Source of the DNA: Nocardioides nitrophenolicus
Lineage (GTDB): Bacteria > Actinomycetota > Actinomycetes > Propionibacteriales > Nocardioidaceae
Assembly (NCBI RefSeq): GCF_016907515.1
Contig: NZ_JAFBBY010000001.1
Span: 5,518,001 to 5,582,000 of the forward strand
Length of the DNA stretch: 64,000 nt
Direction: 5' to 3'
Part shown: positions 3,861-38,539 of the stretch, in pieces
Layout: each line of letters starts with the position of its first letter
Numbering within the stretch: the first letter of the stretch is position 1
Program-made: the position numbers and the translations under genes
The notes under the pieces: generated by a model
Seen by the model: the letters and a program-made list of their open reading frames with translations, nothing else
What the model was told of the DNA's origin: nothing
The model's database searches: none

Positions 3861-3914
3861 ATCGGGCGGAAATTCCGGGCTCGCGGGATCACGGGGGCCG
3901 GCGGCGCGCACCAG
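3861..3914 (+). promoter_or_regulatory. EPS box element, copy A (divergent variant)
   Basis: GGATCA at 3886-3891, exactly 16 bases, then GCACCAG at 3908-3914. It has the spacing of the other six copies but two changes from GCACTGG and a G rather than T before GGATCA. It is preceded by a possible stem (CGGGC paired with GCTCG, one G-T pair) enclosing GGAAATTCC. The next gene, an acetyltransferase, starts only seven bases later at 3921. The function is unknown; it is the weakest of the plus-strand copies. Confidence 0.5.
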
Positions 3915-3920
3915 TGCGAC

Positions 3921-4424
3921 GTGAGCATGCCGCCGACGTCCCTTCGCGCCGAGGTCCTGCAGGACTGGCGGGCCAACCGACCCGACCCCCGTGGCCGGCT
4001 GGTGCTGGCCGCCTTCCGGCTCGCCCACCGCGCCAGCCGCAACCGGTCCGGGGCCTGGCGGGTGCCCGCGACGGCGTACGGGCTGCTCTACCGGGTGCTC
4101 GTCGAGTGGGTCCTCGGCATCGAGATCCCCTGGAAGACCTCGATCGGGCCCGGGGCCCGGCTGCGCCACGGTGTCGGCCTGGTCGTCAACGACCGCTCGG
4201 TGATCGGCGCGCGGGTGCTGCTGCGGCACGGCGTGACGATCGGCAACGCCCGGGCGGGCGGGCCGTGCCCGGTGATCGGCGACGACGTCGAGATCGGCGC
4301 CGGGGCGGTCATCGTCGGCGGCATCACCGTCGGTGACGGCGCCCGGATCGGCGCCAACGCGGTGATCACCAAGGACGTGCCGGCCGGTGCCGTGGCGGTC
4401 GGCAACCCGATGCGCCTGCGCTGA
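3921..4424 (+). CDS. serine-acetyltransferase-like hexapeptide acetyltransferase
   Basis: A 167-residue left-handed beta-helix acetyltransferase of the SAT/WcaB type. After an N-terminal helical part (about 1-65) come hexapeptide repeats (IGPGARLRHGVG, IGARVLLRHGVTIGN, VIGDDVEIGAGAVIVGG, IGANAVIT) and the usual end AVGNP. Such enzymes transfer acetyl from acetyl-CoA. It is short for a housekeeping CysE and sits at the head of the EPS region, so acetylation of an EPS sugar is more likely than cysteine synthesis. GTG 3921 is used as start; ATG 3927, two codons inside, is the alternative. It stands alone between two copies of the repeated regulatory element. The acceptor is unknown. Confidence 0.82.
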   Translation: MSMPPTSLRAEVLQDWRANRPDPRGRLVLAAFRLAHRASRNRSGAWRVPATAYGLLYRVLVEWVLGIEIPWKTSIGPGARLRHGVGLVVNDRSVIGARVLLRHGVTIGNARAGGPCPVIGDDVEIGAGAVIVGGITVGDGARIGANAVITKDVPAGAVAVGNPMRLR

Positions 4425-4440
4425 GGTCCGAGCGTTGTCG

Positions 4441-4500
4441 GTGATCGGTGAAAGAAATCGGCGATCACTGGATCAGGGCGGGGCCCGGGACGCACTGGTG
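4441..4500 (+). promoter_or_regulatory. EPS box element, copy B, with a 7-bp stem
   Basis: TGGATCA at 4469-4475, 16 bases, GCACTGG at 4492-4498. Directly before it a perfect stem GTGATCG (4441-4447) with CGATCAC (4462-4468) encloses a 14-base AAAGAAAT-containing loop. After it CTGGTG (4495-4500) can pair with CACCAG (4507-4512), a hairpin that overlaps the second box. It precedes the polymerase gene at 4539. Promoter, protein site and structured leader RNA all remain possible. Confidence 0.72.
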
Positions 4501-4538
4501 GAAGGACACCAGCACCCAGCAGAAGGCCCGATCGACCG

Positions 4539-5849
4539 ATGAACGTGCGCGAGCACCCCACCAGCCAGGCGCCCGGCCGGCCGGACGGGCGGCCGCGCTC
4601 GGCGCCCGACCTGCCGACCTGGCCGCTCGGCGTGCTCTTCGCCGGGCTGCCGCTGTGGTGGGCGAGCGGCGTGCTCGACGTGGTGACCATCCCCTTCGCG
4701 CTGCTCATGGCCTGGCTGATGGCCCGCGCCGGCGGGATCCGGGTCCCGCGGGGCTTCGGCTGGTGGGTGCTCTACTGCGCGTGGGCGCTGGCCTCCGTCG
4801 TGATGCTGGACCGCGCGGCCGGGATCGTGCTCTTCGGCTACCGCTGGCTGCTGTGCGTGGCCGCCGGCGTGATCTTCGCCTACGTCTTCAACGCCCGGGC
4901 GACGATCACCTCGCGCTATCTCACCGGCACGCTGACCCTCTGGTTCCTCTACGTCACCGTCGGCGGCTACCTCGGGCTCGCGGTCCCCACCGGATCGCTG
5001 CGCACCCCAGCCAGCCACCTGCTGCCCGGCGCCGCGCGCGCCAACGAGCTGATCGGCCAGATGACGGTCCGGCCGTTCGCCCAGTACAACCCCAACGGCT
5101 TCCTGGAGGTCTCGCCGCGGCCCACCGCGCCCTTCCTCTACACCAACAACTGGGGCAGCGTGTACTCGCTGCTCGCGCCCTTCGTCCTCGTCTACCTGCT
5201 GCACACCTGGCGCACCCGGCGTGGGGCGGCCGTGGCGGTGCTGCTCCTGGTGTCGACGATCCCGGCCTTCCTCACCCTCAACCGCGGCATGTTCATCAGC
5301 CTCGGCATCGCGGTGGCCTACCTGGCGGTGCGGGCCGCGCTCGCGCGCAAGGGCGCGATCGTCGCCGCGGTCGCGCTGAGCGCGGTGCTCGGCGTGGTGC
5401 TGTTCAACGTGCTGCCCGTGAGCGAGCGGATGGGGCTGCGGCTCAACGAGGAGGCCGAGGGCACCAGCAACACCGCCCGGCTCTCGCTCTACGAGCAGTC
5501 GCTCTCGGCGGTGGCCTCATCGCCGCTGCTCGGACACGCCACCCCGATCCCGTCGGCGAACCCCGAGGAGCCGAGCGTGGGCACCCAGGGTCAGCTGTGG
5601 ATGATGCTGGTCTCCCACGGACCGGTCGCGGCGCTGGCGTGGGTCGCCTTCTTCCTGGCGATGTACGCCCGCGGCCGGCACCGAGGAGACCCGCTGGGCG
5701 TCGCCGCGTGCACGACGCTCCTCGTCGGCACCGTCCAGCTGCTGTTCTACGGCATGTTGCCCTACGGCCTGCCGCTCCTCATGATCGCCGCCGCCGTCGC
5801 GGCCCGCGGTCCCGAGCGCCTCGTCCTCACCGAAGGAGACCCCTCATGA
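4539..5849 (+). CDS. O-antigen ligase / Wzy-type EPS polymerase
   Basis: A 436-residue integral membrane protein with about ten to twelve hydrophobic segments and a long external loop near residues 160-205 (the PFAQYNPNGFLE and TNNWG region). This is the layout of the O-antigen ligase/Wzy superfamily. The RxSLY segment and the short GHATPIPSANPEEP loop before the last membrane helices fit the family's second periplasmic loop. It would polymerise undecaprenyl-linked repeat units outside the membrane. It starts at ATG 4539 and its stop overlaps the following GT2 gene by four bases. It is one of three such modules in the window. The leader holds element B. Polymerase and ligase cannot be told apart by sequence alone. 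Confidence 0.82.
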   Translation: MNVREHPTSQAPGRPDGRPRSAPDLPTWPLGVLFAGLPLWWASGVLDVVTIPFALLMAWLMARAGGIRVPRGFGWWVLYCAWALASVVMLDRAAGIVLFGYRWLLCVAAGVIFAYVFNARATITSRYLTGTLTLWFLYVTVGGYLGLAVPTGSLRTPASHLLPGAARANELIGQMTVRPFAQYNPNGFLEVSPRPTAPFLYTNNWGSVYSLLAPFVLVYLLHTWRTRRGAAVAVLLLVSTIPAFLTLNRGMFISLGIAVAYLAVRAALARKGAIVAAVALSAVLGVVLFNVLPVSERMGLRLNEEAEGTSNTARLSLYEQSLSAVASSPLLGHATPIPSANPEEPSVGTQGQLWMMLVSHGPVAALAWVAFFLAMYARGRHRGDPLGVAACTTLLVGTVQLLFYGMLPYGLPLLMIAAAVAARGPERLVLTEGDPS

Positions 5850-6769
5850 CCGCGACGTCCCCGCCCCGCGTCGGCGTGGTGATCCCCACCCGCGCCCGTC
5901 CCGAGCTGCTGCGCCGGGCGATCGCGTCGGTCGTCGCCCAGGACTACCCGGGCGTCGTCGAGACCGTCGTGGTGTACGACGGCACCGCGCCCGACCCGAG
6001 CCTCGCGTCGGCCGAGCCCCGGCGCCCGGTCCGCGTGGTCACGAACCAGCGCACCGCCGGCCTCTCGGGGGCCCGCAACACCGGCATCCTCGCGCTCGAC
6101 ACGGCGTACGTCGCCTTCTGCGACGACGACGACCACTGGCTGCCGTCGAAGGTACGCCGGCAGGTCGCCCGCGCCGAGCAGCCCGACCGGCCCGAGCTGG
6201 TGACCTGCTCGATCACCGTCGACTACGACGGCACCCGCACCGACCGCTTCGCCGGCACCGACACGGTCACCCACGCCGACCTGACCCGGTCGATCTACGC
6301 GATGCTCCACTCCTCCTGCTTCTTCTTCGACCGCCGCGCGCTGGTCGACGAGATCGGCCTGATCAACGAAGAGCTGCCGCAGAGCCAGCTCGAGGACTGG
6401 GACATCAAGCTGCGCGCCGCCGAGCGACGGCCGATCGCCCACCTCGACGAGCCGCTCACCGTGGTGCAGTGGGGCCGAGCCTCCATGTTCGCCCGCCGCT
6501 GGGACTCCAAGAACGCCGCGCTGCGGGCGATCCTGCAGCTCCACCCGGCCATCGCCGCCGACAGCAGGGGCGCCGCCCGGGTCTACGGCCAGCTCGCCTT
6601 CGGCACGGCGGCCGCCGGCGAGCGCGCCGAGTCCTGGCAGTGGATCCGGCGCACGCTGCGCACCGACCCGCGCCAGTGGCGCGCGGCTGTGGCGCTCGCC
6701 GTGCTGCCCCACCCGCCCAACGCGGAGCGGGTGCTCAACACGCTGCACCGGTTCGGGAGGGGCGTGTGA
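5846..6769 (+). CDS. GT2-family glycosyltransferase
   Basis: A 307-residue GT-A fold enzyme starting at ATG 5846 (ATGA overlap). The start VGVVIPTRARPELLRRAI is the family's nucleotide-sugar binding strand, GLSGARNTGI follows, and CDDDDHW carries the DxD-type metal and sugar-nucleotide motif near residue 92. The LEDWDIKLR segment supplies the ED acceptor-side motif. No membrane helix is seen, so it should act at the cytoplasmic face, adding a sugar to the lipid-linked repeat unit. It lies between the polymerase and the Wzz-like gene in one tightly coupled operon. Donor and linkage are not predictable. Confidence 0.88.
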   Translation: MTATSPPRVGVVIPTRARPELLRRAIASVVAQDYPGVVETVVVYDGTAPDPSLASAEPRRPVRVVTNQRTAGLSGARNTGILALDTAYVAFCDDDDHWLPSKVRRQVARAEQPDRPELVTCSITVDYDGTRTDRFAGTDTVTHADLTRSIYAMLHSSCFFFDRRALVDEIGLINEELPQSQLEDWDIKLRAAERRPIAHLDEPLTVVQWGRASMFARRWDSKNAALRAILQLHPAIAADSRGAARVYGQLAFGTAAAGERAESWQWIRRTLRTDPRQWRAAVALAVLPHPPNAERVLNTLHRFGRGV

Positions 6770-11813: not shown

Positions 11814-11825
11814 GCCGTCGCGGGT

Positions 11826-11839: not shown

Positions 11840-11842
11840 CGG

Positions 11843-17678: not shown

Positions 17679-17741
17679 ATCGGAAAGCTTCAACAATCTT
17701 GGCGAAGCCGATGGATCAGATGTGGTCGGTTCCCGCACTGG
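17679..17741 (+). promoter_or_regulatory. EPS box element, copy C, with branched stem
   Basis: TGGATCA at 17712-17718, 16 bases, GCACTGG at 17735-17741. Upstream, ATCGG (17679-17683) pairs with CCGAT (17708-17712) and CTTC (17688-17691) pairs with GAAG (17704-17707) as an inner stem. It precedes the histidine kinase gene at 17808. Confidence 0.68.
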
Positions 17742-17747
17742 AGAGGG

Positions 17748-17768
17748 GAGCGCCGGGTTCGGGCGCTC
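17748..17768 (+). other. leader hairpin after element C
   Basis: GAGCGCC pairs perfectly with GGCGCTC around a 7-base loop, just after the second box and 39 bases before the kinase start. No T-tract follows. It may be part of the same leader structure as element C. Confidence 0.45.
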
Positions 17769-17807
17769 GGTGAGACCCGCTCGACAGCGAGACAGTGAGG
17801 AAGCCCG

Positions 17808-18488
17808 ATGACGACACGCCAGGCCCGGTCGCGTCCCGCCCAGCATCCGAGGCCCGCTCGTCATCCGGGTGGCACCACCGCCGACGCCCAGGTTCGCCGC
17901 TACCAGGCGCAGCTGCACGAGATCAACGCCACCGTCGCCGGGCTCGCCTCGGCGGCCGAGCTGCTGCCCCTGCTGCCCGGCGCCGAGCGCGCGCGCTTCG
18001 AGACGATGATGCTCAGTGAGCTGCGCCGCCTGCAGCGGGTGATCGTCGGCGAGCCCGCGACCGCCTGGGGCGAGATCGTGGTCGACGAGGTGCTCGCCCC
18101 GCTGGTCGCCGCGCACGCCGCCCGCGGGCGGACGGTGCACTGGTCCGGCTGCGGGCTGCACGCGGCCGGCAGCGCCGACGTGCTGAGCGAGGCGGTCAAC
18201 GTGCTCCTCGACAACGCCGCCCGGCACGGCACGCCCGACGACATCCGGATCGACGCCCGCCGGTACGCCGACCGCGTGGAGGTCAGCGTCGTCGACTCCG
18301 GCCCCGGCGTCCCGCCCGAGCTGGGCGCGGAGGTCTTCGGCTGGGGCCGCCACCGGCAGGACTCGCCCGGACAGGGCATCGGCCTCGCCGTGGCCCGGGG
18401 CCGGCTGCGCGAGTGGAATGCCGACCTGCGCCTGGAGGCCGCGCCGCTCACGACCTTCGTCATCGACCTGCCGGTGGGCCGCCGATGA
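17808..18488 (+). CDS. small soluble histidine kinase-like ATPase
   Basis: A 226-residue protein with no membrane or sensor domain. Residues about 30-80 look like a dimerisation helix pair, with His37 in QLHEINAT the likely phosphate acceptor. The HATPase_c domain has the N box NVLLDNAARH (131-140), G1 DSGPGVP (163-169) and G2 GQGIGL (188-193), so ATP binding looks intact. It is half the usual length and must receive its signal through another protein. The stop overlaps the response regulator start by four bases. Element C lies in its leader. It may control the EPS region. Confidence 0.85.
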   Translation: MTTRQARSRPAQHPRPARHPGGTTADAQVRRYQAQLHEINATVAGLASAAELLPLLPGAERARFETMMLSELRRLQRVIVGEPATAWGEIVVDEVLAPLVAAHAARGRTVHWSGCGLHAAGSADVLSEAVNVLLDNAARHGTPDDIRIDARRYADRVEVSVVDSGPGVPPELGAEVFGWGRHRQDSPGQGIGLAVARGRLREWNADLRLEAAPLTTFVIDLPVGRR

Positions 18489-19339: not shown

Positions 19340-19385
19340 GAAATCTCCGCCGCGGTGGATCAACGCCCGCCCCGGCCCGCACTGG
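19340..19385 (+). promoter_or_regulatory. EPS box element, copy D
   Basis: TGGATCA at 19356-19362, 16 bases, GCACTGG at 19379-19385, with GAAATCTCC just upstream as in other copies and a short CCG/CGG stem before the first box. The 295-bp gap between the response regulator and the coiled-coil gene at 19461 otherwise shows no gene. Confidence 0.68.
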
Positions 19386-19393
19386 AGGGAGGT

Positions 19394-19425
19394 CAGGTCG
19401 TCCGGCCCCACTTCCGGACGACCTG
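19394..19425 (+). other. strong 12-bp leader hairpin after element D
   Basis: CAGGTCGTCCGG pairs perfectly with CCGGACGACCTG around an 8-base loop, nine bases after the second box and 35 bases before the start codon. No T-tract follows, so it is not a classic terminator; attenuation, RNA stability or protein binding are possible. Confidence 0.7.
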
Positions 19426-19460
19426 GCACCCCATCCCTGACCGACACAGGAGCTGTTCCG

Positions 19461-19868
19461 TTGGCCGACCCGACTGATGACGCCGCCCCGCACCCCGGCG
19501 ACCCCGCCGCGGCCGAGAGGCCGAGCTGGCCGGCGTTCATCCCCCACCGTGAGATCGACGGGCTGCTCGAGCGCATCGAGAACGCCGCCGCCGTCGAGCC
19601 CGCCGAGGCGGCCCGCCTGCTGCGGATGATCTCGAAGGAGGCGCAGCGGCTGCGGGCAATGGCGCTGCGGATGACCACGGAGAAGCTCGCGGAGGCCGAT
19701 CGGGAGGCCAGCGGGATCCTCAGCGAGGCGCTCAGCCACGCCGACACGATGCGCAGCGTCGGGCTCGCGACGCTCAACTCCCGCCTCGACGAGGCGGACC
19801 AGCTGATGGCGACGGTCCGCGAGGCCTTCCGCCTCGAGCTGCGCGCCACCGACCTCAGGGACGCCTGA
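19461..19868 (+). CDS. small coiled-coil protein, paralog of the gene at 22262
   Basis: A 135-residue protein from TTG 19461, with AGGAG upstream. After a Pro/Ala-rich start, residues about 30-130 are one long amphipathic helix pair with heptad-like Leu/Ala spacing (ISKEAQRLRAMALRMTTEKLAEADREAS). It aligns clearly with the 127-residue product at 22262 (shared pattern LR, A-R-R, TTE-L, REA-I, EAD, ELRA). No membrane helix or known catalytic motif is seen. The look is that of DivIVA/Wag31-like scaffold helices. It is the first gene of an operon with a second coiled-coil gene and a Wzz-kinase-like gene, so a scaffold for EPS assembly is a reasonable guess. The function is unknown. Confidence 0.72.
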   Translation: MADPTDDAAPHPGDPAAAERPSWPAFIPHREIDGLLERIENAAAVEPAEAARLLRMISKEAQRLRAMALRMTTEKLAEADREASGILSEALSHADTMRSVGLATLNSRLDEADQLMATVREAFRLELRATDLRDA

Positions 19869-23350: not shown

Positions 23351-24457
23351 ATGCGGGTCCTGCACGTCGTCGAGTCGCTCGGCGGGGGAGTGCTGAGCTC
23401 GGTGCTCAGCATGGTCGACGCGACCTCCGACATCGACCACCAGCTGGCGATCTGGCATCGACGCGAGCATGCCGACACCGGCGACCAGCGCGCCGTGTTC
23501 GGCGGCGTCCACGACCTGCCCGGCCCGCCCCACCGGGCCGCGCGCTCGCTGCGCGACCTGGTGGCCGCGCTGGCGCCGGACCTGGTCCACGCGCACTCGT
23601 CGTACGCCGGCGTGCTGGCCCGCTCGTCGGACCTCGGCGTGCCGGTGGCCTACAGCCCCCACTGCTTCGCCTTCGAGCGCACCGACCTGGGGACGATGAG
23701 CCGGACGGCGCTGCGCGAGGTCGAGCGGTCGCTGGTGCGTCGGACCGACGTCCTGGTGGCGTGCTCGCCCCACGAGGCGGGCCTGGCCGCCGAGCTCGGC
23801 TTCCGGCGGGTGGTGACCGTCCCGAACCGGGCGCTGCACCCGCCGGAGGGCCGGGTCCGCCGTGGTGAGCCGTTCCGGGTCGTGGCCGTGGGCCGGGTCG
23901 CTGCTCAGAAGGACTGGCGCCACCTGATCGCGGTGAAGCGCGAGGCGGACCGGCAGGCGGTCGCGGACGAGAGCGAGCCGCTGCGCTGGGAGTGGCTCGG
24001 GAGCGGCGACGCCGACGGCGAGGACGCCCTGCGCGACGCGGGGGTCGAGGTGTCGGGCTGGCTGCCGCGCACCGAGGTCCTGGCGCGGCTGGGCTCGGCC
24101 CAGGCGTACCTGCACACGGCGGCCTGGGAGGGTGCGCCGGTCAGCATCCTCGAGGCGGCTGCCATCGGTCTGCCGATCGTCGCGCGGGCGCTGCCCACGC
24201 TGGTCAGCGACGACGTCCCCGGCCTGGAGTCCACGGTCGAGGGCCTGGCCGAGCGGCTGCTCGACCTGCGCGGTCAGCTGGCGTGGACCCGTGCCCACCG
24301 GCGCTCCCTGGCCTTCTCCGACGACCATTCGGTGTCCCTCCAGCGCTACCGCCTCACCACCGCCTACCGGCACGTGCCCGCCGCGGCCCGCCGGCGTCCC
24401 GAAATTCCCGGGGCCGGGATGGATCACGACCGGCTTCCCGACGCACTGGTTCGGTGA
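23351..24457 (+). CDS. GT4-family glycosyltransferase
   Basis: A 368-residue GT-B enzyme starting at ATG 23351, one base after the previous stop. The N-terminal loop VVESLGGGVLSSVLSMV and LVHAHSSYAGVLAR fit the acceptor domain; VVAVGRVAAQKDW and the AWEGAPVSILEAAAIGLPIVA motif (the GT4 EX7E region) bind the nucleotide sugar. It is cytoplasmic or peripheral and likely adds a sugar to the repeat unit. Its last 20 codons run through regulatory element E, so the C-terminal end RRRPEIPGAGMDHDR is probably not under protein-level selection. Donor and linkage are unknown. Confidence 0.87.
   Translation: MRVLHVVESLGGGVLSSVLSMVDATSDIDHQLAIWHRREHADTGDQRAVFGGVHDLPGPPHRAARSLRDLVAALAPDLVHAHSSYAGVLARSSDLGVPVAYSPHCFAFERTDLGTMSRTALREVERSLVRRTDVLVACSPHEAGLAAELGFRRVVTVPNRALHPPEGRVRRGEPFRVVAVGRVAAQKDWRHLIAVKREADRQAVADESEPLRWEWLGSGDADGEDALRDAGVEVSGWLPRTEVLARLGSAQAYLHTAAWEGAPVSILEAAAIGLPIVARALPTLVSDDVPGLESTVEGLAERLLDLRGQLAWTRAHRRSLAFSDDHSVSLQRYRLTTAYRHVPAAARRRPEIPGAGMDHDRLPDALVR
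24397..24449 (+). promoter_or_regulatory. EPS box element, copy E, with stem
   Basis: TGGATCA at 24420-24426, 16 bases, GCACTGG at 24443-24449. TCCCG (24397-24401) pairs with CGGGA (24415-24419) around a loop containing AAATTCC, ending directly before TGGATCA. It lies inside the 3' end of the preceding GT4 gene and ahead of the gene at 24508. Confidence 0.72.
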
Positions 24458-24459
24458 CG

Positions 24460-24480
24460 GCCGGCCCCCGACGGGCCGGC
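24460..24480 (+). other. leader hairpin after element E
   Basis: GCCGGCCC pairs perfectly with GGGCCGGC around a 5-base loop, followed by TTCCCCCC. It sits between the stop of the GT4 gene and the start of the fusion glycosyltransferase. It could terminate, attenuate or simply stabilise a 5' end. Confidence 0.6.
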
Positions 24481-24507
24481 TTCCCCCCATCAGAGCGGAG
24501 TACGACG

Positions 24508-26643
24508 ATGACCCCGGTCCTCGATGCCGTGACCGTGCCCGCGGGCGAGCCGCAGCGACTGCGGGTCACCGTGGTCCAGCAGGGCGGCGTGCTCGGCGGG
24601 GCCGAGCGCTGGCAGCTCACGCTCGCCGAGGCCACCGACCGGCTGGACCTCGCCGTGATCGCGCTCGGCGGCGGTCCGACCGCGGACGCCTGGCGGCGCC
24701 GGGGGGTACCGGTGGCGCGGGTGCGCTCCGAGCGGCGAGCCGCACGGATCCCGTTGCTCGCGGCCCGGGTGGGCGCGGCGCTGCGCTCGGCGAAGCCCGA
24801 CGTCGTGCTCGCCCACGGGGTCAAGGCCGCGCTCGCCGCCGCCCCGGCGGCCCGGGCGCTCGGCATCCCCTTCGTGTGGGTCCGCCACGACGGCTCGTTC
24901 GCCGGCTGGCCGACCGCTCTCCTCGACCGGGTCACCGACGGCCAGATCTCCACGGGCTCCTGGCTGTTCGAGGGCCGGCACGCCGCCCGCTCCCTGCTGC
25001 TCAACCCACCCCGCACCACCGACCACCTCACGCGGGACCAGGCGCGTGCCGCGCTCGGCGTCGACCGCCCGGAGGACCGCCTGGTGGCGGCGATGGGCAC
25101 CCGCATCGTCCACGGCAAGGGCATCGACGACGCCATCCGGGCCCTCGCCGATCCCGCGACCGAGGCCTGGGACCTGGTCGTCGCCGGCATCCACGACCCC
25201 GACGACACCGGCGAGCAGGACCGGCTCACCGCACTGGCGGACGAGCTCGGCGTCGGCGGCCGGGTCCGCTTTCTGGGCGAGGTCCCCGGCTTCGGCCGGC
25301 TCGCCCGGGCCTTCGACGCGGTGCTGGTGCTGACCAAGCCGACCGCGACCATGCCCTGGCACCGCGAGGCGTTCGGGATGGCGGCCTTCGAGGCGCTCAC
25401 GGCCGGCGTCCCCGTCGTCGTCACGCCACCGCTGGGCGCGATGGCCCAGGACGGGGGCGTCGAGGTCCGCCCCGGCGCGCCGGCCGACGTGGCGGCGGCG
25501 CTGGTGGCCCTCGCCGACCCCGGCACCCGCGCCCGGCGGGGCGCGACGGGCGCCCGGGTGGCCGCGGCGTATCCCGACGCACCGACGGCGGCCGGCGTCC
25601 TGGTCGACTTCCTCGCGGACCTGGCGCACCGGCCCGGCGTCGGCGAGCGGACGACGGGGCCCGCGATCAGCGTGGTGACCACCGTGCTGAACGACGAGGC
25701 GGCGGCCAAGGAGCTGCTCTCCGCACTCGTGCCCCAGCTCGGCCCCGACGACGAGGTGATCGTCGTCGACGGCGGGTCCCGCGACGACACGGTCGGCGTC
25801 GTGCGGGCCTTCGCCGCGTTCGACGAGCGGGTGCGCCTGATCGTCGAGCCCGGCGCCGGCATCTCGCGGGGCCGCAACATCGGCATCCGCGCGGCCACTC
25901 ACGACCGGATCGCCTGCACCGACGCCGGCTGCGTGCCGGCCCCCGGCTGGCTCACGGCCTTCCGCCGGGCCTTCGCCCGGCACCCCGAGGTCGACCTGTG
26001 GACCGGGACCTACCGGGTCGAGTCGCACCAGCCCTGGGAGCACGCGCTCGCCGCGGTCGGCTACCCGCAGGTCGAGGAGCTGGCCCGGCCGACCCCGCTC
26101 GTCCGCGCCTACGGCCGGCTCTTCGGGCGCGCCTTCGACGCGTCCATGCCGACCGGCCGCTCGGTGGCCTTCGCCCGCGTCGCCTGGGCGAGCGTGGGCG
26201 GCTTCCCGGAGGATCTGCAGACCGGTGAGGACGTGCTCTTCGGGCGCAGCATCGTCGCGGCCGGTGGCACCGCCCGGATGGTGCGCGACGCCGAGGTGAG
26301 CTGGGCGCAGCGCCCGACCCTCCGGGCCAACCTGACCATGTTCCGCCGCTACGGCGAGGGCAGCGGCAACTCGCTCGACCCTCGGCTGCTCGGCCGCGAC
26401 CTCGCCCGGGTGGCCGCCTACACCGCGGCCGCGGGCGTCGCGGTCCGTGGCTCGAGGGGCGCGCGGGCCGCCGCGGCGGCCGGCCTCGCGGCCTACCTCT
26501 CCCTGCCCGTGGCCCGGGCCGTCCAGGGCCCCGACCCGCTGCGCTCCACGGCGCTGGTGCCGCCGATCGCGGCCGCGCGCGACCTCGCCAAGGCGTACGG
26601 CGCACTCGCGGCCGCCTCCCGCCGTCGGAGCCGACCGCGATGA
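24508..26643 (+). CDS. GT4-GT2 fusion glycosyltransferase
   Basis: A 711-residue two-domain protein in one uninterrupted frame. Residues about 12-375 are a GT4 (GT-B) enzyme: VVQQGGVLGGAERW, VVAGIHDPDDTG and the AFGMAAFEALTAGVPVVVTP donor motif. Residues about 390-640 are a GT2 (GT-A) enzyme: ISVVTTVLNDEAAAKELL, VIVVDGGSRDDT, ISRGRNIGI, TDAGCVP and the acceptor-side GEDVLFGR. It should add two successive sugars or one disaccharide to the lipid intermediate. ATG 24508 follows a spaced AGCGGAG. The stop overlaps the polymerase gene. Element E and a hairpin lie just upstream. The fusion is unusual but intact. Confidence 0.85.
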   Translation: MTPVLDAVTVPAGEPQRLRVTVVQQGGVLGGAERWQLTLAEATDRLDLAVIALGGGPTADAWRRRGVPVARVRSERRAARIPLLAARVGAALRSAKPDVVLAHGVKAALAAAPAARALGIPFVWVRHDGSFAGWPTALLDRVTDGQISTGSWLFEGRHAARSLLLNPPRTTDHLTRDQARAALGVDRPEDRLVAAMGTRIVHGKGIDDAIRALADPATEAWDLVVAGIHDPDDTGEQDRLTALADELGVGGRVRFLGEVPGFGRLARAFDAVLVLTKPTATMPWHREAFGMAAFEALTAGVPVVVTPPLGAMAQDGGVEVRPGAPADVAAALVALADPGTRARRGATGARVAAAYPDAPTAAGVLVDFLADLAHRPGVGERTTGPAISVVTTVLNDEAAAKELLSALVPQLGPDDEVIVVDGGSRDDTVGVVRAFAAFDERVRLIVEPGAGISRGRNIGIRAATHDRIACTDAGCVPAPGWLTAFRRAFARHPEVDLWTGTYRVESHQPWEHALAAVGYPQVEELARPTPLVRAYGRLFGRAFDASMPTGRSVAFARVAWASVGGFPEDLQTGEDVLFGRSIVAAGGTARMVRDAEVSWAQRPTLRANLTMFRRYGEGSGNSLDPRLLGRDLARVAAYTAAAGVAVRGSRGARAAAAAGLAAYLSLPVARAVQGPDPLRSTALVPPIAAARDLAKAYGALAAASRRRSRPR

Positions 26644-30452: not shown

Positions 30453-30468
30453 CGAGGTCACCCGGCCG

Positions 30469-30514
30469 GCACTTCGGCCCCCGATGGATCAACCCGGCCC
30501 GCCGCCCGCACTGG
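30469..30514 (+). promoter_or_regulatory. EPS box element, copy F
   Basis: TGGATCA at 30485-30491, 16 bases, GCACTGG at 30508-30514. A short stem, TCGG with CCGA, lies just before. The second box runs directly into the AGGGG ribosome-binding site of the gene at 30524, so the element, if transcribed, lies right at the translation start. Confidence 0.68.
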
Positions 30515-30523
30515 TGAGGGGCC

Positions 30524-30955
30524 ATGGCTGATCCGACGCGCTCGAGCGAGCCCTCCGCGGAGGAGGGCGCCCTCGTGCTGCCCCCGAACGGGGCGGTCGA
30601 GGAGGTCGCCGGCTGGGACCAGGGGCTCGCGTACGTCGAGACGGTGCTGGCCCGGCTGGTTGCCGACCGCACCGAGGCGGCCGACCTGATCCGCGCCCGG
30701 GCGCGGGTGACCGCGGTCGACGAGGCCCAGGCGCGGGCACTGGCCCATGTCGTGGGCGAGGCCGTCCGCGCGGCGCTCCGGGCGGACACGGACCGGGCGG
30801 CCGCGCGGCTCGAGCTGGCCGAGCGGGTGCGAGCGGTGCTGCCGCTGCGGGCCGCCGCGGTCGAGGTGCTCGCGGGACTGGACGCCGCGCTGGCGGCGCT
30901 GCGCGCGGGGGAGCGGGACCTGACGCGGATCCTCGACGAGGAGCGGATCCGATGA
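30524..30955 (+). CDS. small coiled-coil protein of the third EPS operon
   Basis: A 143-residue protein starting at ATG 30524 behind AGGGG. Residues about 28-140 are a continuous Ala/Arg/Leu/Glu-rich helix, probably a coiled coil (VETVLARLVADRTEAADLI, RLELAERVRAVLPLRAAAV). It resembles the coiled-coil proteins at 19461 and 22262 in size, composition and position at the head of an element-controlled operon, but a residue-by-residue match is weak. No membrane helix or catalytic motif is visible. It overlaps the Wzx-Wzy fusion gene by four bases. Its role may be to organise the assembly machinery; that is inference. Confidence 0.68.
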   Translation: MADPTRSSEPSAEEGALVLPPNGAVEEVAGWDQGLAYVETVLARLVADRTEAADLIRARARVTAVDEAQARALAHVVGEAVRAALRADTDRAAARLELAERVRAVLPLRAAAVEVLAGLDAALAALRAGERDLTRILDEERIR

Positions 30956-33723
30956 CGGCCGCCGTCACCACCGGCCCGCCGCGCGTGAGCCCGCCGCCGG
31001 TGAGCCCGGTCGCGGGCTCGGGCTGGCTGGGTCTGGGCGCGGTCGCGGCCAAGACCTGCCAGACGGCCGTCCTGCTCGTGTTCGCCGCGGTGCTGGCGCC
31101 CGACGAGTTCGGGATCATCTCGCTGGCCGCCGTGCTGCTGAATGTGTGCGTCGTGCTCGCCGACCTCGGCACCAGCACCGCCCTGGTGCCGTTCCGGGGC
31201 GACGCCGAGCGGGCGGCGCGCAGTGCGCTGTCGCTCGCCCTGGCCCTGTCGGCGGCCATCGTCGCGGTGGTGTGGCTGGCGGCCCCGTGGCTCGCGGTCC
31301 AGCTCCGGATCGGCGCCGAGGGGGCGGGGGTGCTCCGCGGCATCGTGCTCTGCCTGCCGCTGGCGGCCGCCGCCGGCGTCAGCGCGGAGCTGCTGCGTCG
31401 CTCGCTCGACTTCCGGCGCCGGGTGCTGCCCGACATCGGCGGCAATCTCGTCGGTGCGCTCGTCACGGTCGCGGCGCTCGCGGCCGGTCAGGGCGCGTTC
31501 GCGCTGGTGACCGGCCAGCTCGTGCAGGCGGCGCTGGTGCAGCTGCTGTTCTGGGCGCTGCGCCGTCCGGTGCTCCCGGGCTGGTCCCGCGGCGACGTCC
31601 GCGCGCTGCTCGCCTTCGGGGGCGGCTGGGCCGGCAGCAGCCTGCTGACGCTGCTGATCCTCAACCTGGACTTCCTGCTCGTCGCCCACCGGCTCGGAGC
31701 CCACGACGTCGGTACCTACTCGATGGCGTTCCGGCTCGCGTACATGCCGTACCTGCTCATCGCGATGGTGATCGGCGGCAGCCTGTTCGCCCACCTCAGC
31801 CGGATGCGCGCCGCAGCCGTGGGCCGGGCCGCGGTCGACGCCGCGCTGTTGGTCCACGCGCTCGTCGTCCCGCTGTACGTCGGCCTGCTCGTGCTCGCCC
31901 CGGGCCTGACCCTGCTGGGTGAGCAGTGGGCGCCCGCCGTCCCCGCGCTGCGCTGGCTGGCGGCCTACGGCCTGGTGCTCAGCGCGCTCGAGGTGCTGGT
32001 GGTGGTCCTCAAGGCGGCCGGCCGGACCACGGACGTCCTGGCGCTGACCGGTCTCCACCTGGTGCTGCTGCTCGTGCTGCTGCTCCTGGTCGTCGACCGC
32101 GGCATCACCGCCGTGGCGGCCGCCCAGCTCGGCGCGGTGGTGCTGACCGTCGTCGCGGCGGGCGTCCTGGTCGCACATCGGGTCCCGTCGATCTCCTGGC
32201 CCGAGCTCGGTCGCGGCCTGCTCCCGGTGGCGGCCGGCGGCGGGGCGCTCGGGCTGACCGCCCTCGCCGTCGGCGGCCTGCTGCCCGTCGCCCGCAGCTC
32301 GCTCGTCGGCGTCCTCGCGGCGGGCGGGGCGGCGTCGGTGGCCTACCTGACGACCGTCGTGCTGCTCGACCGGGCCGGCCGCACCGGCCTGGGGCGGGTG
32401 CTGCGCCCGGGCCGCTGGGCCGCGCCGTCGGCCATGATCGCCGGGCTGACCGCGGCCGCGCTCGCCACCGCCGCGTTGGCGGTGCTGGCGCCGGTGCCCG
32501 TCCTCGTCACCCTCGCCGGGGGAGCCGTGGTCGCCGCGGCGCTCGCCCGGCTCGAGTGGGCGGCGGTGCTGCTGGTCGTCGCCGAGCCGTTCGGCGACCT
32601 GCTCCGTGAGGCGCACCCGGAGGCGGTCAAGGCGGTCGGACTGCTGCTCTTCGCCTCCTGGCTGCTGCGCCTGGTCGCCGGCGCGGGCCCGTCCGTGACC
32701 CGGCATCCGGCCGGCGGCGCGCTCGGCGTGATCGTGCTGGCCCTGCTGGCGTCGTCCGTCCTGCGGGGGATGGATCTCGCGGTCGGCCTCGACCACGCGG
32801 TCAGCTATGCGTCGTACGCCCTCGTGGTGGCGGCCCTGGTCGACGCCGTACGCCGGGGCCGCCCGGGTGCCGAGGCGGTCGCGCGGCGGCTGGCCACCTG
32901 CTTCTTCCTCGCGTGCACCGCGGCCGCCGTGGTCGCGACCCTCCGCTTCCTCTCGACGGGTGGCCGGGCCGCCGGCCCGCTGGAGGACCCCAACGACCTG
33001 GCCTTCTTCCTGGTCGCCGCGCTGCCGTTCGGGTTCGTGGTCGCGCACCGGCGCTCGCCGCTGGCGACGGCGGGCGTCCTGGCCTGCGCGGCGGCGCTGG
33101 TCGTGGCGACCTGCGCGACCTTCTCCCGCGGAGCGCTGCTCGCGCTCGTGGTCATGCTGCTCGCGGCGCTCGCGCTGCGCACCCTGCGGCTGACGACCGT
33201 GGTGGGGCTGGGGCTCGCGGCGTCGGCCGCGCTCGGGCTGCTGTGGGCGAGCCATGCCGACCTCGTCGAGCGCAGCATCGCCGAGAAGGAGCACATCGCG
33301 GCCGCCAACGTCGACTCGCGCTACACGACCTGGACGATGGCGGCCGAGATGACCGCCGACAGCCCGCTGCTCGGCCAGGGCCCGGGCGGGTTCGCGGCGG
33401 CGACGCCGGCGTTCGTCCCCGGGGACGTGGCCGCGGTGCCGCAGACGGTGGTGCACAACATGTACCTCGACGTCGCGTCCGAGCTGGGCCTGCTCGGGCT
33501 GGTCGCCTTCCTCGCCCTGCTCGGCTACGCCGCGCGCGGCGCGGCGCGGGCCCGGCGCGTCCCCGAGCGCCGGGTGGTGGCGGACGCGGTGCTCCTCGGG
33601 TTCGCGGGGACGCTCACCGCGGCCTGCTTCCTGAGCGAGCAGTTCTACCTGCCGGTCTGGCTGCTCGTGGCGCTGGGCGTCGCCCTCGACCCGGGGCCGG
33701 TCGCCTCCGAGAGGCGGGTCTGA
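30952..33723 (+). CDS. Wzx-Wzy fusion: flippase joined to O-antigen ligase/polymerase
   Basis: A 923-residue membrane protein in one open frame. Residues about 20-500 are a MOP-type flippase (AKTCQTAVLLVFAAVLAPDEFG, ELLRRSLDFRRRVLPD, NLDFLLVAHRLGAHDVGTYS). Residues about 530-915 are an O-antigen ligase/Wzy module: PLEDPNDLAFFLVAALPFG, CATFSRGALLAL, SRYTTWTMAAEM, SPLLGQGPGGF and VVHNMYLDVASELG, with the family His, Asp and Glu in the last. About 24-26 membrane helices are expected. Flipping and polymerisation would be physically coupled. It is usually two proteins. Start ATG 30952 overlaps the coiled-coil gene; GT4 genes follow. Confidence 0.87.
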   Translation: MTAAVTTGPPRVSPPPVSPVAGSGWLGLGAVAAKTCQTAVLLVFAAVLAPDEFGIISLAAVLLNVCVVLADLGTSTALVPFRGDAERAARSALSLALALSAAIVAVVWLAAPWLAVQLRIGAEGAGVLRGIVLCLPLAAAAGVSAELLRRSLDFRRRVLPDIGGNLVGALVTVAALAAGQGAFALVTGQLVQAALVQLLFWALRRPVLPGWSRGDVRALLAFGGGWAGSSLLTLLILNLDFLLVAHRLGAHDVGTYSMAFRLAYMPYLLIAMVIGGSLFAHLSRMRAAAVGRAAVDAALLVHALVVPLYVGLLVLAPGLTLLGEQWAPAVPALRWLAAYGLVLSALEVLVVVLKAAGRTTDVLALTGLHLVLLLVLLLLVVDRGITAVAAAQLGAVVLTVVAAGVLVAHRVPSISWPELGRGLLPVAAGGGALGLTALAVGGLLPVARSSLVGVLAAGGAASVAYLTTVVLLDRAGRTGLGRVLRPGRWAAPSAMIAGLTAAALATAALAVLAPVPVLVTLAGGAVVAAALARLEWAAVLLVVAEPFGDLLREAHPEAVKAVGLLLFASWLLRLVAGAGPSVTRHPAGGALGVIVLALLASSVLRGMDLAVGLDHAVSYASYALVVAALVDAVRRGRPGAEAVARRLATCFFLACTAAAVVATLRFLSTGGRAAGPLEDPNDLAFFLVAALPFGFVVAHRRSPLATAGVLACAAALVVATCATFSRGALLALVVMLLAALALRTLRLTTVVGLGLAASAALGLLWASHADLVERSIAEKEHIAAANVDSRYTTWTMAAEMTADSPLLGQGPGGFAAATPAFVPGDVAAVPQTVVHNMYLDVASELGLLGLVAFLALLGYAARGAARARRVPERRVVADAVLLGFAGTLTAACFLSEQFYLPVWLLVALGVALDPGPVASERRV

Positions 33724-33725
33724 GC

Positions 33726-34835: not shown

Positions 34836-35923
34836 GGATCCTGACCGTCATCCCCGAGCTCGGCGCCGGCGGCGCCGAGGTGGTCGCGCTCACCCTGGCC
34901 CGGGCCGCGACCGCCGACGGGCACCACTCCCGCATCGCCAGCGCCCCGGGCTTCCGCGTCGCCGAGGCCACCGCGGCCGGCATCGCGCACACCGCGCTGC
35001 CCACGATGGGCCGGCGGCCCAGGGACCTGCTGCGCGCCGTCGTGCGCCTGCGCCGGCTGCCCCCGCCCGACCTGGTCCACGCCCACAACCCGAAGGCCGC
35101 GCTGCTCTGCCGCCTCGCGTTCGGACACCGGGCCCCGCTCCTCGTCACCCTCCACGGCGTCGCGGACCACGAGCTCGGGACCGCCGTCCGGATCCTGCGC
35201 CGGGCCGCCGACCACGTCGTCGTGGTCTCCCCGCACCTGCGCGAGCGGCTGCTCGTGCACGGCTTCCCGGCGTACCGGGTCTCGGTGGTGCCGAACGGGG
35301 TGGACCGGCTGCCGGCGTACCCCCGGCAGCGGGCGCGGGCCGAGCTCGGCATCGCGCCCGACGAGGTCGTCGCGCTGTGCCCGGCCCGGCTGGTCGAGCA
35401 GAAGCGCCACGATCTCCTGGTCGAGGCCTGGGCCGCCCTGGACCGGCCGCCGTTGCTTCTCCTCGCCGGCGACGGACCGCGCCGCCCGGACGTCACGGCC
35501 GCCATCGCCCGCCACGGACTGCGCGACCGGGTCCGGCTGCTCGGGGAGCGGGCCGACCTGCCCCGGCTGCTGGCCGCCAGCGACCTGCTCACCCTGGCCA
35601 CGGACTGGGAGGGCCTGCCGATCGCCGTGCTGGAGGCGCTCGGCGCGGGCCTGCCCGTCGTGGCCTCCGACGTGCCCGGCATCACCGACCAGTTCGGTGA
35701 CGCGGTCCACGTCGTCCCGCCCGGCTCCGCCGCCGACCTCGCCGCCGGACTGCGTGCCGTCCTGGTCGAGCCGGCGCTGCGGGCGCGGCTGTCGGCCGCC
35801 GGCACCTTCGCCTTCGACCGGCGCTTCGCCGCCGACCCGATGATCGCGCGCTACCGCGACCTCCAAGCCGCCATGACCGGAAGCTCGGTCCGGATCCCCA
35901 CGACGACGGGAGTTTCACCATGA
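34832..35923 (+). CDS. GT4-family glycosyltransferase
   Basis: A 363-residue GT-B enzyme. VIPELGAGGAEVVALTLAR is the family's first loop, LVHAHNPKAALLCRLA and VVPNGVDRLPAY are conserved blocks, and CPARLVEQKRHDLLVEAW begins the donor domain, with the EX7E-type motif DWEGLPIAVLEALGAGLPVVA. It starts at ATG 34832 inside the previous stop. The order of two GT4 genes, an exported protein and an epimerase suggests a UDP-galactose or related donor made by the epimerase. The specificity is not predictable from sequence. Confidence 0.88.
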   Translation: MRILTVIPELGAGGAEVVALTLARAATADGHHSRIASAPGFRVAEATAAGIAHTALPTMGRRPRDLLRAVVRLRRLPPPDLVHAHNPKAALLCRLAFGHRAPLLVTLHGVADHELGTAVRILRRAADHVVVVSPHLRERLLVHGFPAYRVSVVPNGVDRLPAYPRQRARAELGIAPDEVVALCPARLVEQKRHDLLVEAWAALDRPPLLLLAGDGPRRPDVTAAIARHGLRDRVRLLGERADLPRLLAASDLLTLATDWEGLPIAVLEALGAGLPVVASDVPGITDQFGDAVHVVPPGSAADLAAGLRAVLVEPALRARLSAAGTFAFDRRFAADPMIARYRDLQAAMTGSSVRIPTTTGVSP

Positions 35924-36720
35924 GTCCCACCCGTGACAGCCACAGCCGGTGGCTGCTGTACCTCGGCGCCGGCTGCATCGCCACGGGCCTGGTCACCGGC
36001 CCACTGCTGATGTCGGGCATGCTCGGCGGCGACGGCGGGTCGCACGACGACGCGCCGCCACCGGCGGCCTCGCCGGCCCCCGCGACGCCCGGCGACGGAG
36101 GCGCGACCGCCGGCACCGCCGGAGTCGGTCCCGAGGTGGTGTCCTGGGGCCAGGAGGGCCGCCAGCTCGCCGTCGTCCTGCGCAACGACTCGGACCAGGT
36201 CCTCGACGAGGCCCGGGTGCGGATCACCGGGCGCAGCGCCGCGGGCAACGTCGTGGTGTCGACCAGCGGCCCCGAGAACGACGTGTGCTGCACCGTCTTC
36301 GGCCTCCCGCCGGGTGAGGAGTTCGGGGTCTACGCCCCGATCGACCCGGCCGCCGCCGAGATCACCGACGTGACCGTGGAGTACGTCTCGACCGACTTCC
36401 GCCCGGTCCGCCCGGAGGAGGCGCGGGTGGTCGCGCGCAAGGGCCGGCTCGAGCGCACCGACGACAACACCGTGGTCACCGTGACGCTGCGGGCCACCGG
36501 ACCGGTCGGCGACCACGTCGCCGCCCAGGCGATCCTGGTGGACTCCGCGGGGAACCTCGCGCAGGTGATCTCCGGGCGCTACTGGTGCTACGAGCCCGGC
36601 ACCCGCCGTCGGATCCGGCTCGAGCTCTACCGGCCGGTGCCCGCCGACCTGCGCCTGGACCGCGTGGTGGCGCACTCGATCCCCGACGGCGTGCCCCACG
36701 GTGGCAAGGGCCGGTGCTGA
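35920..36720 (+). CDS. membrane-anchored exported protein of unknown function
   Basis: A 266-residue protein. One hydrophobic segment at about 12-33 (LLYLGAGCIATGLVTGPLLM) is a signal anchor, followed by a Gly/Ala/Pro linker (about 37-67) and a beta-rich outer region, with a possible immunoglobulin-like repeat at about 70-155 (LAVVLRNDSDQVLDEARVRITGR) and a second at about 165-260. Two adjacent cysteines (ENDVCCTVFG) and later single cysteines could form disulfides. It is tightly coupled to the GT4 gene upstream and ends three bases before the epimerase start. It may be an EPS-binding or export-associated protein. No family is recognised. Confidence 0.7.
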   Translation: MSPTRDSHSRWLLYLGAGCIATGLVTGPLLMSGMLGGDGGSHDDAPPPAASPAPATPGDGGATAGTAGVGPEVVSWGQEGRQLAVVLRNDSDQVLDEARVRITGRSAAGNVVVSTSGPENDVCCTVFGLPPGEEFGVYAPIDPAAAEITDVTVEYVSTDFRPVRPEEARVVARKGRLERTDDNTVVTVTLRATGPVGDHVAAQAILVDSAGNLAQVISGRYWCYEPGTRRRIRLELYRPVPADLRLDRVVAHSIPDGVPHGGKGRC

Positions 36721-36723
36721 GCG

Positions 36724-37746
36724 ATGAAGGTCCTGGTCACCGGGGGCGCCGGCTACATCGGCAGCACCGTGGTCTCCGCGCTCCTCGACGCCGGGCACCG
36801 GCCGATCATCCTCGACGACCTGTCCTCGGGACGCGCGGAGTTCGTCCGGGGCCTGCCCTTCCACCGCGGTGACATCGCCGACCAGCCGCTGATACGCCGG
36901 ATCCTGACCGCCCATCCCGACCTCCGCTCCGTGGTGCACTGCGCCGCGCGGGTCGTCGTACCCGAGTCGGTGACCGACCCGGTCGGCTACTACCGCACGA
37001 ATGTCGCCGGCACCCTCGAGCTGGCGGCCGCGCTCGCCGACGGCGGCGTGCGCGACCTGGTGTTCAGCAGCTCCGCGTCGGTGTACGCCGCCGGGCCCGA
37101 CGCCGGGCAGGCCCTCGGCCTGGACGAGGACGCGCCGCTCGGACCGAGCAGCCCCTACGCGCGGACCAAGGCGATGATGGAGGCGGTCCTCGCCGACGTC
37201 AGCGCGGTGACCGGCCTGCGCACCCTCGCCCTGCGCTACTTCAACCCGATGGGGGCCGACCCGGCGCTGCGCACCGGCCCGCAGCAGCCGGTGCCCGCTC
37301 ACGTCCTGGGCCGGCTCGTGGAGTGTGCCCGCCGGGGCGAGCCGTTCCGGCTCACGGGCGTCGACTACCCGACGCCGGACGGCACGGGGATCCGCGACTA
37401 CGTCCACGTCTGGGACCTGGCCCGCGCCCACGTGGCCGCGGTCGAGGACTTCGACCGGGCGCTCGCCGGATCCCGGCACCAGGTGATCAACCTCGGCACC
37501 GGCCGCGGCACCAGCGTCCGCGAGCTGGTCGACACCTTCGCCGCGGTCTCCCGTCGGAGCGTCGAGGTCGTCGAGGCGCCGCGCCGCGACGGCGACGCCG
37601 TGGGTGGCTACGCACGGTGCGAGCGGGCGGCCGAGCTGCTGGACTGGAAGGCCGAGCTGGACCTCGCCGCGGGCGTGCGGGACGCCCTGGCCTGGTCCGT
37701 CCACCGCGGCAGCGTGCTGCCCGATCTCGCGACGGCGGTCCGATGA
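36724..37746 (+). CDS. galE: UDP-glucose 4-epimerase-like SDR
   Basis: A 340-residue extended short-chain dehydrogenase. GGAGYIG at 7-13 binds NAD, SSSASVY (115-121) carries the catalytic Ser/Thr site, and Tyr145 and Lys149 in SPYARTK complete the triad. LRYFNPMGAD and YPTPDGTGIRDYVHVWDLARAH are hallmark blocks of GalE, and the length is that expected. It interconverts UDP-glucose and UDP-galactose or the N-acetyl forms, supplying donors to the GT4 enzymes nearby. ATG 36724 follows AGCG at 3 bp after the previous gene. A copy in an EPS operon need not be the housekeeping GalE. Confidence 0.88.
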   Translation: MKVLVTGGAGYIGSTVVSALLDAGHRPIILDDLSSGRAEFVRGLPFHRGDIADQPLIRRILTAHPDLRSVVHCAARVVVPESVTDPVGYYRTNVAGTLELAAALADGGVRDLVFSSSASVYAAGPDAGQALGLDEDAPLGPSSPYARTKAMMEAVLADVSAVTGLRTLALRYFNPMGADPALRTGPQQPVPAHVLGRLVECARRGEPFRLTGVDYPTPDGTGIRDYVHVWDLARAHVAAVEDFDRALAGSRHQVINLGTGRGTSVRELVDTFAAVSRRSVEVVEAPRRDGDAVGGYARCERAAELLDWKAELDLAAGVRDALAWSVHRGSVLPDLATAVR

Positions 37747-38528
37747 GCCGGCAGCTGCTCGACGACCTCCGCCGGGACCCGTCCCTCGTCATCGACGAGG
37801 CGCGCCGGCCCGCTGACCGGGCCCGGATCCTGCGGGAGGTCGAGGGCCGGCAGTGGGCCGCCGAGCACGGCATCCCGACGGCGGAGACGGTCGCCGTCGG
37901 CCGCCACGGTGCCTGGCTGGTCAGCCGCCGGCTCGAGGACCGGCCGGGCGTCAGCCTGGCGTACCTGCAGGCCGCGCTCGACGTCGCCCAGCGGATCCAG
38001 CACGCCCCCCGCCCGCGGCTGGCCCCCGTGGCCGACGCCTGGAAGGCGCCGCGCTCAGCAGCGGTCGCGAACGCCGCGCGGCTGGCGGCCGGGGGAGTGA
38101 GCCCGCGCGAGTACGTCGCGACCCGCGCCACCGCTCAGCGGGTGCCGAGCACGGCGATGATCCACAACGACTTCCACCGCGACAATGTGCTCGACCTGGG
38201 TGCCGGAGCCGGCGTCGCGGTCATCGACTGGGAGTTCCTGACCCCCGGCCCCCCGCACCGCGACTTCCTCCAGCTCCTGGTCAACGTCCGCGACGACGAC
38301 CTCGCCCACGAGGGCTGGGAGCTGCTGCTCCGCCAGGCTCCGGCCGCCGAGCACGAGCTCATCGGCCGGCAGTTCCCGTGGCTCGCGCTGCGCACCTACG
38401 CCTCGCAGCTCACCGCGGCCGACCCGGACCGCGACGTCGCGCAGCGCGCCCACAACCGCAAGCGTTGGCGGCAGGCCCGGCGGTGGTCGTCGTCCCTGCG
38501 TCGACCGCGTGGATCAAACCGGCCGTGA
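37743..38528 (+). CDS. APH-fold kinase, second copy in the EPS region
   Basis: A 261-residue aminoglycoside/choline kinase-fold protein. The catalytic loop HNDFHRDNV is at 141-149 and the metal site AVIDWEF at 159-165. The N-terminal ATP lobe is short (RILREVEGRQWAAEHG, then LVSRRL), as in small lipid or sugar kinases. It overlaps the epimerase by four bases. The last codons run through element G, where the C-terminal end RRPRGSNRP is encoded. The gene cluster suggests a sugar, carrier-lipid or EPS phosphate donor role. Antibiotic resistance is unlikely by context. Confidence 0.75.
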   Translation: MSRQLLDDLRRDPSLVIDEARRPADRARILREVEGRQWAAEHGIPTAETVAVGRHGAWLVSRRLEDRPGVSLAYLQAALDVAQRIQHAPRPRLAPVADAWKAPRSAAVANAARLAAGGVSPREYVATRATAQRVPSTAMIHNDFHRDNVLDLGAGAGVAVIDWEFLTPGPPHRDFLQLLVNVRDDDLAHEGWELLLRQAPAAEHELIGRQFPWLALRTYASQLTAADPDRDVAQRAHNRKRWRQARRWSSSLRRPRGSNRP

Positions 38529-38539
38529 GCACGCACTGG
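38483..38539 (+). promoter_or_regulatory. EPS box element, copy G, with a 7-bp stem
   Basis: TGGATCA at 38510-38516, 16 bases, GCACTGG at 38533-38539. GTGGTCG (38483-38489) pairs with CGACCGC (38502-38508), one G-T pair, ending one base before TGGATCA. It overlaps the 3' end of the kinase gene; the second box contributes to a GGAGG sequence ahead of GTG 38546. Confidence 0.7.

Follow-up and report, generated by a model that had tools for sequence, protein, structure and literature searches.

A two-box element ahead of exopolysaccharide genes in Nocardioides nitrophenolicus as the probable promoter of a CHAT-linked ECF sigma factor

The window analyzed here is a whole stretch of 64,000 nucleotides from the chromosome of Nocardioides nitrophenolicus (contig NZ_JAFBBY010000001.1, positions 5,518,001 to 5,582,000), which contains a large locus for exopolysaccharide (EPS) synthesis. 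Its subject is a two-box element, GGATCA-N16-GCACTGG, found repeatedly ahead of the genes of this locus. The best overall explanation for the element is that it is a promoter, very probably that of an extracytoplasmic function (ECF) sigma factor whose gene lies at the window's left edge. The sigma gene is followed in one operon by genes for a 196-aa protein and a CHAT protein.

Results

The features on which the analysis is based are listed below by window coordinates and strand; all +1 positions are predictions.

1..594, plus: ECF sigma factor, proposed reader of the element; predicted ATG 42 bases left of the window (L033:13959)
591..1181, plus: anti-sigma-like protein, 196 aa, with ChrR-resembling N-terminal helices and a C-terminal beta sandwich
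1178..3736, plus: putative TPR-CHAT protease, His723 and Cys765 at the CHAT dyad positions
3829..3857, minus: copy with box 2 GCACCAG; +1 at 3822, the A of the ATG of a 35-codon open reading frame (ORF)
3868..3878, no strand: AT-rich box GGAAATTCCGG, between the divergent copies 3829(-) and 3886(+) and shared by both
3886..3914, plus: copy with box 2 GCACCAG; +1 at 3921, the G of the GTG of a hexapeptide acetyltransferase gene; leaderless
4470..4498, plus: copy; +1 at 4505 (G), a 34-nt leader, then a Wzy_C-domain gene at 4539
17713..17741, plus: copy; +1 at 17748 (G), a leader, then a histidine kinase gene at 17808 and a LuxR-type regulator gene at 18485
19357..19385, plus: copy; +1 at 19392 (G), a leader opened by a strong hairpin, then a coiled-coil protein gene at 19461
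24421..24449, plus: copy within the 3' end of a glycosyltransferase (GT) gene (23351-24457); +1 at 24456 (G), then a GT4-GT2 fusion gene at 24508
30486..30514, plus: copy; +1 at 30521 (G), ATG at 30524, then the ORF at 30524 and a flippase-polymerase fusion gene at 30952
38511..38539, plus: copy; +1 at 38546, the G of the GTG of a GNAT acyltransferase gene; leaderless

The exact pattern was searched for in the window and in the whole chromosome of 5,815,017 bases. Six matches (4470, 17713, 19357, 24421, 30486 and 38511, every one on the plus strand) were registered in the EPS locus of the window, and these are all that the chromosome contains. The seven copies with a constant spacer described in an earlier note on this DNA were thus found again, six of them exact and the seventh, 3886(+), departing from box 2 at two bases (GCACCAG). 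The spacer is N16 in all copies, and six of the seven have a T directly before box 1, as had been stated. Base composition predicts 0.0016 exact matches per window, close to the roughly 0.002 given before, and 0.14 per genome; first-order Markov simulations of the window yielded none in 300. The pattern read backwards has no match in the whole genome in either its exact or its refined form. With up to three mismatches allowed, the window contains 43 matches versus 23 expected, so that loose matches carry little weight by themselves.

The refined pattern has 13 matches in the genome: nine at the EPS locus (3829(-), 3886, 4470, 17713, 19357, 24421, 30486, 38511 and, in chromosome coordinates, 5514494), one at genome position 812854, adjoining a second, paralogous sigma gene, and three with another box 2 (GCACCGG) which sit within coding sequences. 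Two of the nine were absent from the earlier list, namely the minus-strand copy 3829-3857, which has two mismatches and diverges from 3886, and a copy 3.5 kb to the left of the window whose box 1 reads GGATCT (G000:C1:5514494). Each EPS copy, those of the divergent pair among them, points in the direction of the gene that it precedes. Overlap of copies 24421 and 38511 with 3' ends of coding sequences was reproduced, and copy 17713 does precede a histidine kinase gene, which is not a biosynthesis gene. The motif is not common elsewhere in the genome, exact copies being confined to the EPS locus.

The position of the boxes relative to the genes was studied in 39 curated copies from this genome and its relatives, many of which are orthologues of one another; 13 came from scans requiring a start codon, and the other 26 were found without that demand. 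Box 2 is GCACTGG or GCACCAG and seldom has another ending. All 39 copies have A or T directly behind box 2 and a purine at the seventh base after it; this purine begins ATG or GTG in 26 and is G in the remaining 13. The same is true for copies collected without the start-codon demand (A/T in 26/26, purine in 26/26, with 13 start codons and 13 G), whereas 50 uncurated box matches, which include four G166 duplicates of real copies, have A/T at the first base in 15 cases and a purine at the seventh in 28. If the seventh base is counted as +1, GGATCA occupies positions -35 to -30 and box 2 positions -13 to -7. An A at -11, the base known to be important in sigma-70 promoters, is present in every curated copy. 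An AT-rich stretch near -50 is also common to the copies, the A+T content at -51 to -48 being 59-77% across the curated set as compared with a GC content of 74.5% in the window, and the stretch at about -53 to -48 probably works in the manner of an UP element. Judged by this geometry, the element looks like a promoter, often leaderless, rather than a leader RNA, with starts that can be predicted to the base. An intergenic box match in the EPS region of G002 (L016 2871, minus strand), which is outside the 39, fits the same rule.

The ORF of 35 codons at 3715-3822 on the minus strand starts precisely at the predicted +1 of copy 3829(-). Its product is a Cys-rich peptide with the core CRCHPCYHDLGVHAPG, found in G165 too, and is perhaps a genuine small protein belonging to the regulon.

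Co-occurrence of the element and the sigma factor was estimated in 215 genomes of the genus (G handles, G000 being this genome). A close sigma homologue (E<=1e-30) is present in 23 of them, and a promoter with a start codon (GGATCA-N16-GCACYRG-N6-RTG) in 20. The promoter was called in 14 of the 23 sigma-positive and in 6 of the 192 sigma-negative genomes (Fisher p=7e-12). In the nine sigma carriers lacking the promoter pattern the identity of sigma is 47-68%, except for G031, where the gene is on a 5.7-kb contig. Sigma or CHAT homologues share a region with EPS genes in G002, G014, G206, G226, G230 and G165. The element also occurs beyond the family, its start lying 110-430 nt before the matched sigma segment, in L277, L276 and L279 (metagenome-assembled genomes labelled Nostocoides, Propionibacteriaceae and Quadrisphaera, respectively) and in L364, a further member of the class. 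These elements score 21-31, with a maximum of 13.1-14.5 in the background; L277 belongs to the training set. The element of L279 precedes a CoA_binding_3 protein, a domain which occurs in EPS-initiating sugar transferases. In a class-wide search sigma matched at E<=1e-25 in 27 of 394 genomes, and among 25 new loci, taken with flanks of up to 1.5 kb, L364 alone had the element; the promoter therefore follows close relatives of sigma.

The exact 14-base pattern occurs in 29 of the 215 genus genomes, in many of them as a recurring coding sequence. Two or more exact matches were registered only in G000, G014, G165, G166, G226 and G230, all six of which carry sigma; in G014 one of the pair resembles a chance match in coding sequence. 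In a set of 58 relative genomes, exact matches in 24 are mostly chance-like and fall in coding sequence (e.g. recurring WINA..KHW codons), those linked to EPS genes being one of the two in G014, and G002. Viral contigs gave 71 stretches with one match each, which were taken for chance. Of the five copies in each of G165 and G166, four are inside the orthologous EPS cluster. The fifth (G165:C1:1490924, G166:C1:4426922) is isolated, far from predicted start codons and has the palindromic spacer GCACTCCGGGGAGTGC; it may be a chance match or a different element. Copies are located in homologous EPS regions of G002, G206, G226, G230 and G014 as well. The element is hence present in the EPS loci of relatives, mainly in those that have a close relative of sigma. 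In the regions of two more distant EPS clusters, G013 and G016 (about 60 kb each), nothing within two mismatches of the 15-base pattern was found; their Wzz-like proteins are 41% and 36% identical, respectively.

Many genes behind the copies in relatives are orthologues of window genes: the acyltransferase 38546 (G100, G142, G181), the glycosyltransferase fusion 24508 and the polymerase 26640 (both G100), the coiled-coil proteins 19461 (G142, G181, G228, G230) and 19919 (G002, G230), the flippase-polymerase 30952 (G014, G165, G216, G226) and the sugar transferase 22642 (G226). An orthologue of an upstream GTPase gene follows a copy in G230. Five of the 22 compared target proteins have no match in the window, namely those of G206 (with a weak JmjC_2 match), G033 and G164, and cut translations from L278 and L279.

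Several genes of the locus deserve separate mention. Left of the window, two dynamin-like GTPase genes (L033 10619-12265 and 12283-13776) stand before the sigma operon. Both have homologues in G014 and G226 and the first also has one in G230, in each case within the EPS region; a promoter copy goes with the first gene in G000, G165 and G230. The gene 30952-33723 (plus strand) encodes a single protein of 923 aa combining a Polysacc_synt_3 flippase domain with a Wzy_C polymerase/ligase domain. Downstream of the EPS genes, 41422-42264 and 42420-43274 (plus strand) are neighbouring genes whose products are similar to each other, carry an XRE helix-turn-helix at the C-terminus and are both kept in G165.

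The sigma gene matches TIGR02937 with 70 bits, and region 4 of the protein is almost invariant among 14 homologues. The N-terminal helices of the 196-aa protein weakly resemble the anti-sigma factor ChrR, and its C-terminal part is an Ig/MG1-like beta sandwich. The protein has a weak CarboxypepD_reg match under Pfam's cut-off, and a profile of 15 homologues found no solved chain with a sequence match at E<=1. The third protein has a CHAT domain (146 bits) with a putative His723/Cys765 dyad and a weak sequence match to Csx29. TPR families are above cut-off in its homologues, the window protein itself having only weak TPR-like matches.

We inspected 32 named loci (L263-L294), several of them from the same genomes as the G-numbered ones. 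Sigma was located by gene finding in 15, and the CHAT protein two genes further on in nine of these. In all nine loci showing the three genes, the middle place is taken by a protein of this kind with about 195-215 aa, and the element is present in eight of the nine. The exception is the Aeromicrobium locus L272, which has the trio and no element scoring 13.5 or more. In a tenth locus, L278, a 947-aa protein unflagged by the CHAT pattern occupies the CHAT place, and the element is weak. Neither CHAT nor the element was seen in L271, L273, L275 and L291; the sequence of L270 ends before CHAT, and its box 1 has one mismatch. Related soil bacteria most likely carry the same wiring of sigma, CHAT and promoter.

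Two further observations concern the surroundings of such operons. The 213-aa protein encoded left of the window (L033 9629-10270) is 30-32% identical to homologues of the 196-aa anti-sigma-like protein. A paralogous sigma/CHAT operon is adjoined by a conserved, secreted-looking peptide of 38-42 aa ending in GCC, whose start is found downstream of a divergent copy of the promoter, at a distance of about 260-310 nt; it was seen in these loci, and also in L269 and L175:

L267 9320-9445: GCC-ending peptide
L268 9248-9376: GCC-ending peptide
L270 7396-7512: GCC-ending peptide

Discussion

The boxes, their geometry, the conservation of the regulon and its co-occurrence with sigma are all read directly from the sequences, and from them we infer that this sigma factor reads the boxes. 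Genomic association makes the ECF sigma at the left edge of the window their likely reader. GGATCA would then serve as the -35 element and GCAC(TG/CA)G as the -10 element, with A/T at -6 and a purine at +1, and several transcripts would be leaderless. The sigma factor would switch on the EPS operons and the two-component system of the locus as one regulon, to which the upstream dynamin-like GTPase genes and the small divergent ORF would also belong. Less firmly than this assignment, one can assume that the 196-aa protein keeps sigma inactive, and that the TPR-CHAT protease may cleave it on a signal and so free sigma.

The earlier note left the choice between a promoter or operator and a new class of leader RNA. 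A promoter coordinating EPS synthesis is the part that stands, now with a candidate ECF sigma factor; the leader-RNA class does not. It would place a riboswitch, an antitermination signal or a translation control in the 5' untranslated regions, which is consistent with the position of the copies directly before genes on the coding strand and with hairpins 3' of the boxes in three of four folded leaders of the window. Only one of these clearly beats shuffled sequences (z -4.6 for 19392-19460, versus -1.24 for 24456-24507, -0.04 for 17748-17807 and +1.20 for 4505-4538). However, 24 copies aligned ungapped contain no consensus pairs, Rfam at gathering thresholds has no match in the window, and the boxes end six bases before the start codon in 26 of the 39 curated copies. 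Hairpins noticed on visual inspection around the boxes did not yield a consensus either, and what remains of them are those 3' of +1 in some leaders. A fixed role at the ribosome site is not expected, since four window copies are 40-75 nt from the start codon, and the single match to the NusG family (PF02357) in the genome means that no paralogue of the RfaH or LoaP kind was seen, by which antitermination through such a paralogue was ruled out. A leader RNA is therefore extremely improbable. As to the leaders themselves, that of the coiled-coil operon (19392-19460, plus strand) forms an uninterrupted hairpin of 14 pairs starting at the predicted +1; the leader at 17748 likewise begins with a stem, no better than in shuffles.

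The boxes might also be an operator through which another EPS activator, the LuxR-type regulator (18485) or the XRE proteins (41422/42420), acts on a housekeeping promoter. These regulator genes do lie in the locus, and copy 17713 precedes the kinase/regulator pair. Yet among eight relative regions from seven genomes the element is in every one, while the two-component pair was found only in G165 and G166 and the XRE pair only in G165, the region of G166 being short, so that the pair may be missed there. The regulators are thus not conserved together with the element in the compared regions. Besides, the two boxes are not repeats of each other, the EPS copies aim at the next gene, and their distance to +1 is fixed; an operator is accordingly given only a slight chance, if a somewhat better one than a leader RNA. 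Another alternative accepts the promoter as that of sigma and supposes that CHAT degrades sigma itself, the 196-aa protein being no anti-sigma factor. This is unlikely rather than remote: it is opposed by the presence of the middle protein in all nine complete loci and by the likeness, albeit weak, of its N-terminal helices to ChrR.

Short conserved elements in EPS operons are known from antitermination systems (ops/JUMPstart-RfaH, LoaP, EAR), which work as RNA or within the elongation complex and depend on either a NusG paralogue or RNA structure. The element resembles them in its shortness and location and differs in that neither the paralogue nor the structure was found here. In SigE-ChrR the anti-sigma factor is soluble and also has N-terminal helices and a C-terminal beta domain, though the structural match is weak. 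The C-terminal domain of ChrR is a cupin, whereas the protein considered here has an Ig/MG1-like sandwich and shares its operon with a CHAT protease. Features of ECF promoters found here are two boxes, fixed N16 spacing (~16-17 bp), orientation toward the gene and co-inheritance with a candidate sigma gene.

ECF promoters and the group ECF54 are known kinds; what is added is a promoter and an EPS regulon for a CHAT-linked sigma factor. In the papers searched we found no promoter, target genes or EPS role for such a sigma factor, although papers on ECF classification may contain a predicted motif. According to PMC8999054, ECF54 is an actinobacterial group of ECF sigma factors whose neighbours include CHAT, carboxypeptidase-like and subtilase proteins. 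Compared by this description of the neighbourhood, the window shares CHAT and a weak carboxypeptidase-regulatory-like match with it. A subtilase follows CHAT in three homologous loci (L277, L278, L279) and is absent among the 38 window genes scanned. In the window CHAT is followed by the EPS locus instead, and the operon differs further in its conserved anti-sigma-like protein and in having a promoter and a regulon assigned.

A further parallel is the set of CASP-sigma, Csx30 and Csx29 of type III-E CRISPR, in which, according to PMC10028731, a separate protein was shown to inhibit an ECF sigma factor and a TPR-CHAT protease is present. Here, too, there are an ECF sigma, an inhibitor (only proposed), and a TPR-CHAT protein with a putative His-Cys dyad that weakly matches Csx29. 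The middle protein is quite different, having 196 aa and no sequence match among solved structures as compared with the 565 residues given there for Csx30. No homologue of Csx30 was found as a substrate by the 15-homologue profile against solved chains (E<=1), and the 38 window genes covered by the Pfam scan (up to 43274) include no CRISPR effector (Cas7-11). By analogy, the locus could be a CRISPR-free counterpart of the Craspase pathway, in which TPR-CHAT senses a signal, cleaves a soluble anti-sigma factor and frees the ECF sigma for a largely leaderless EPS regulon of soil actinobacteria; we regard this as a tentative suggestion with somewhat less than an even chance of being right. If the promoter assignment is correct, one CHAT-linked ECF sigma factor gains a precise promoter, start prediction at the level of single bases and a conserved EPS regulon, and the trio of sigma, anti-sigma-like protein and TPR-CHAT would offer a CRISPR-free setting for the control of transcription by CHAT.

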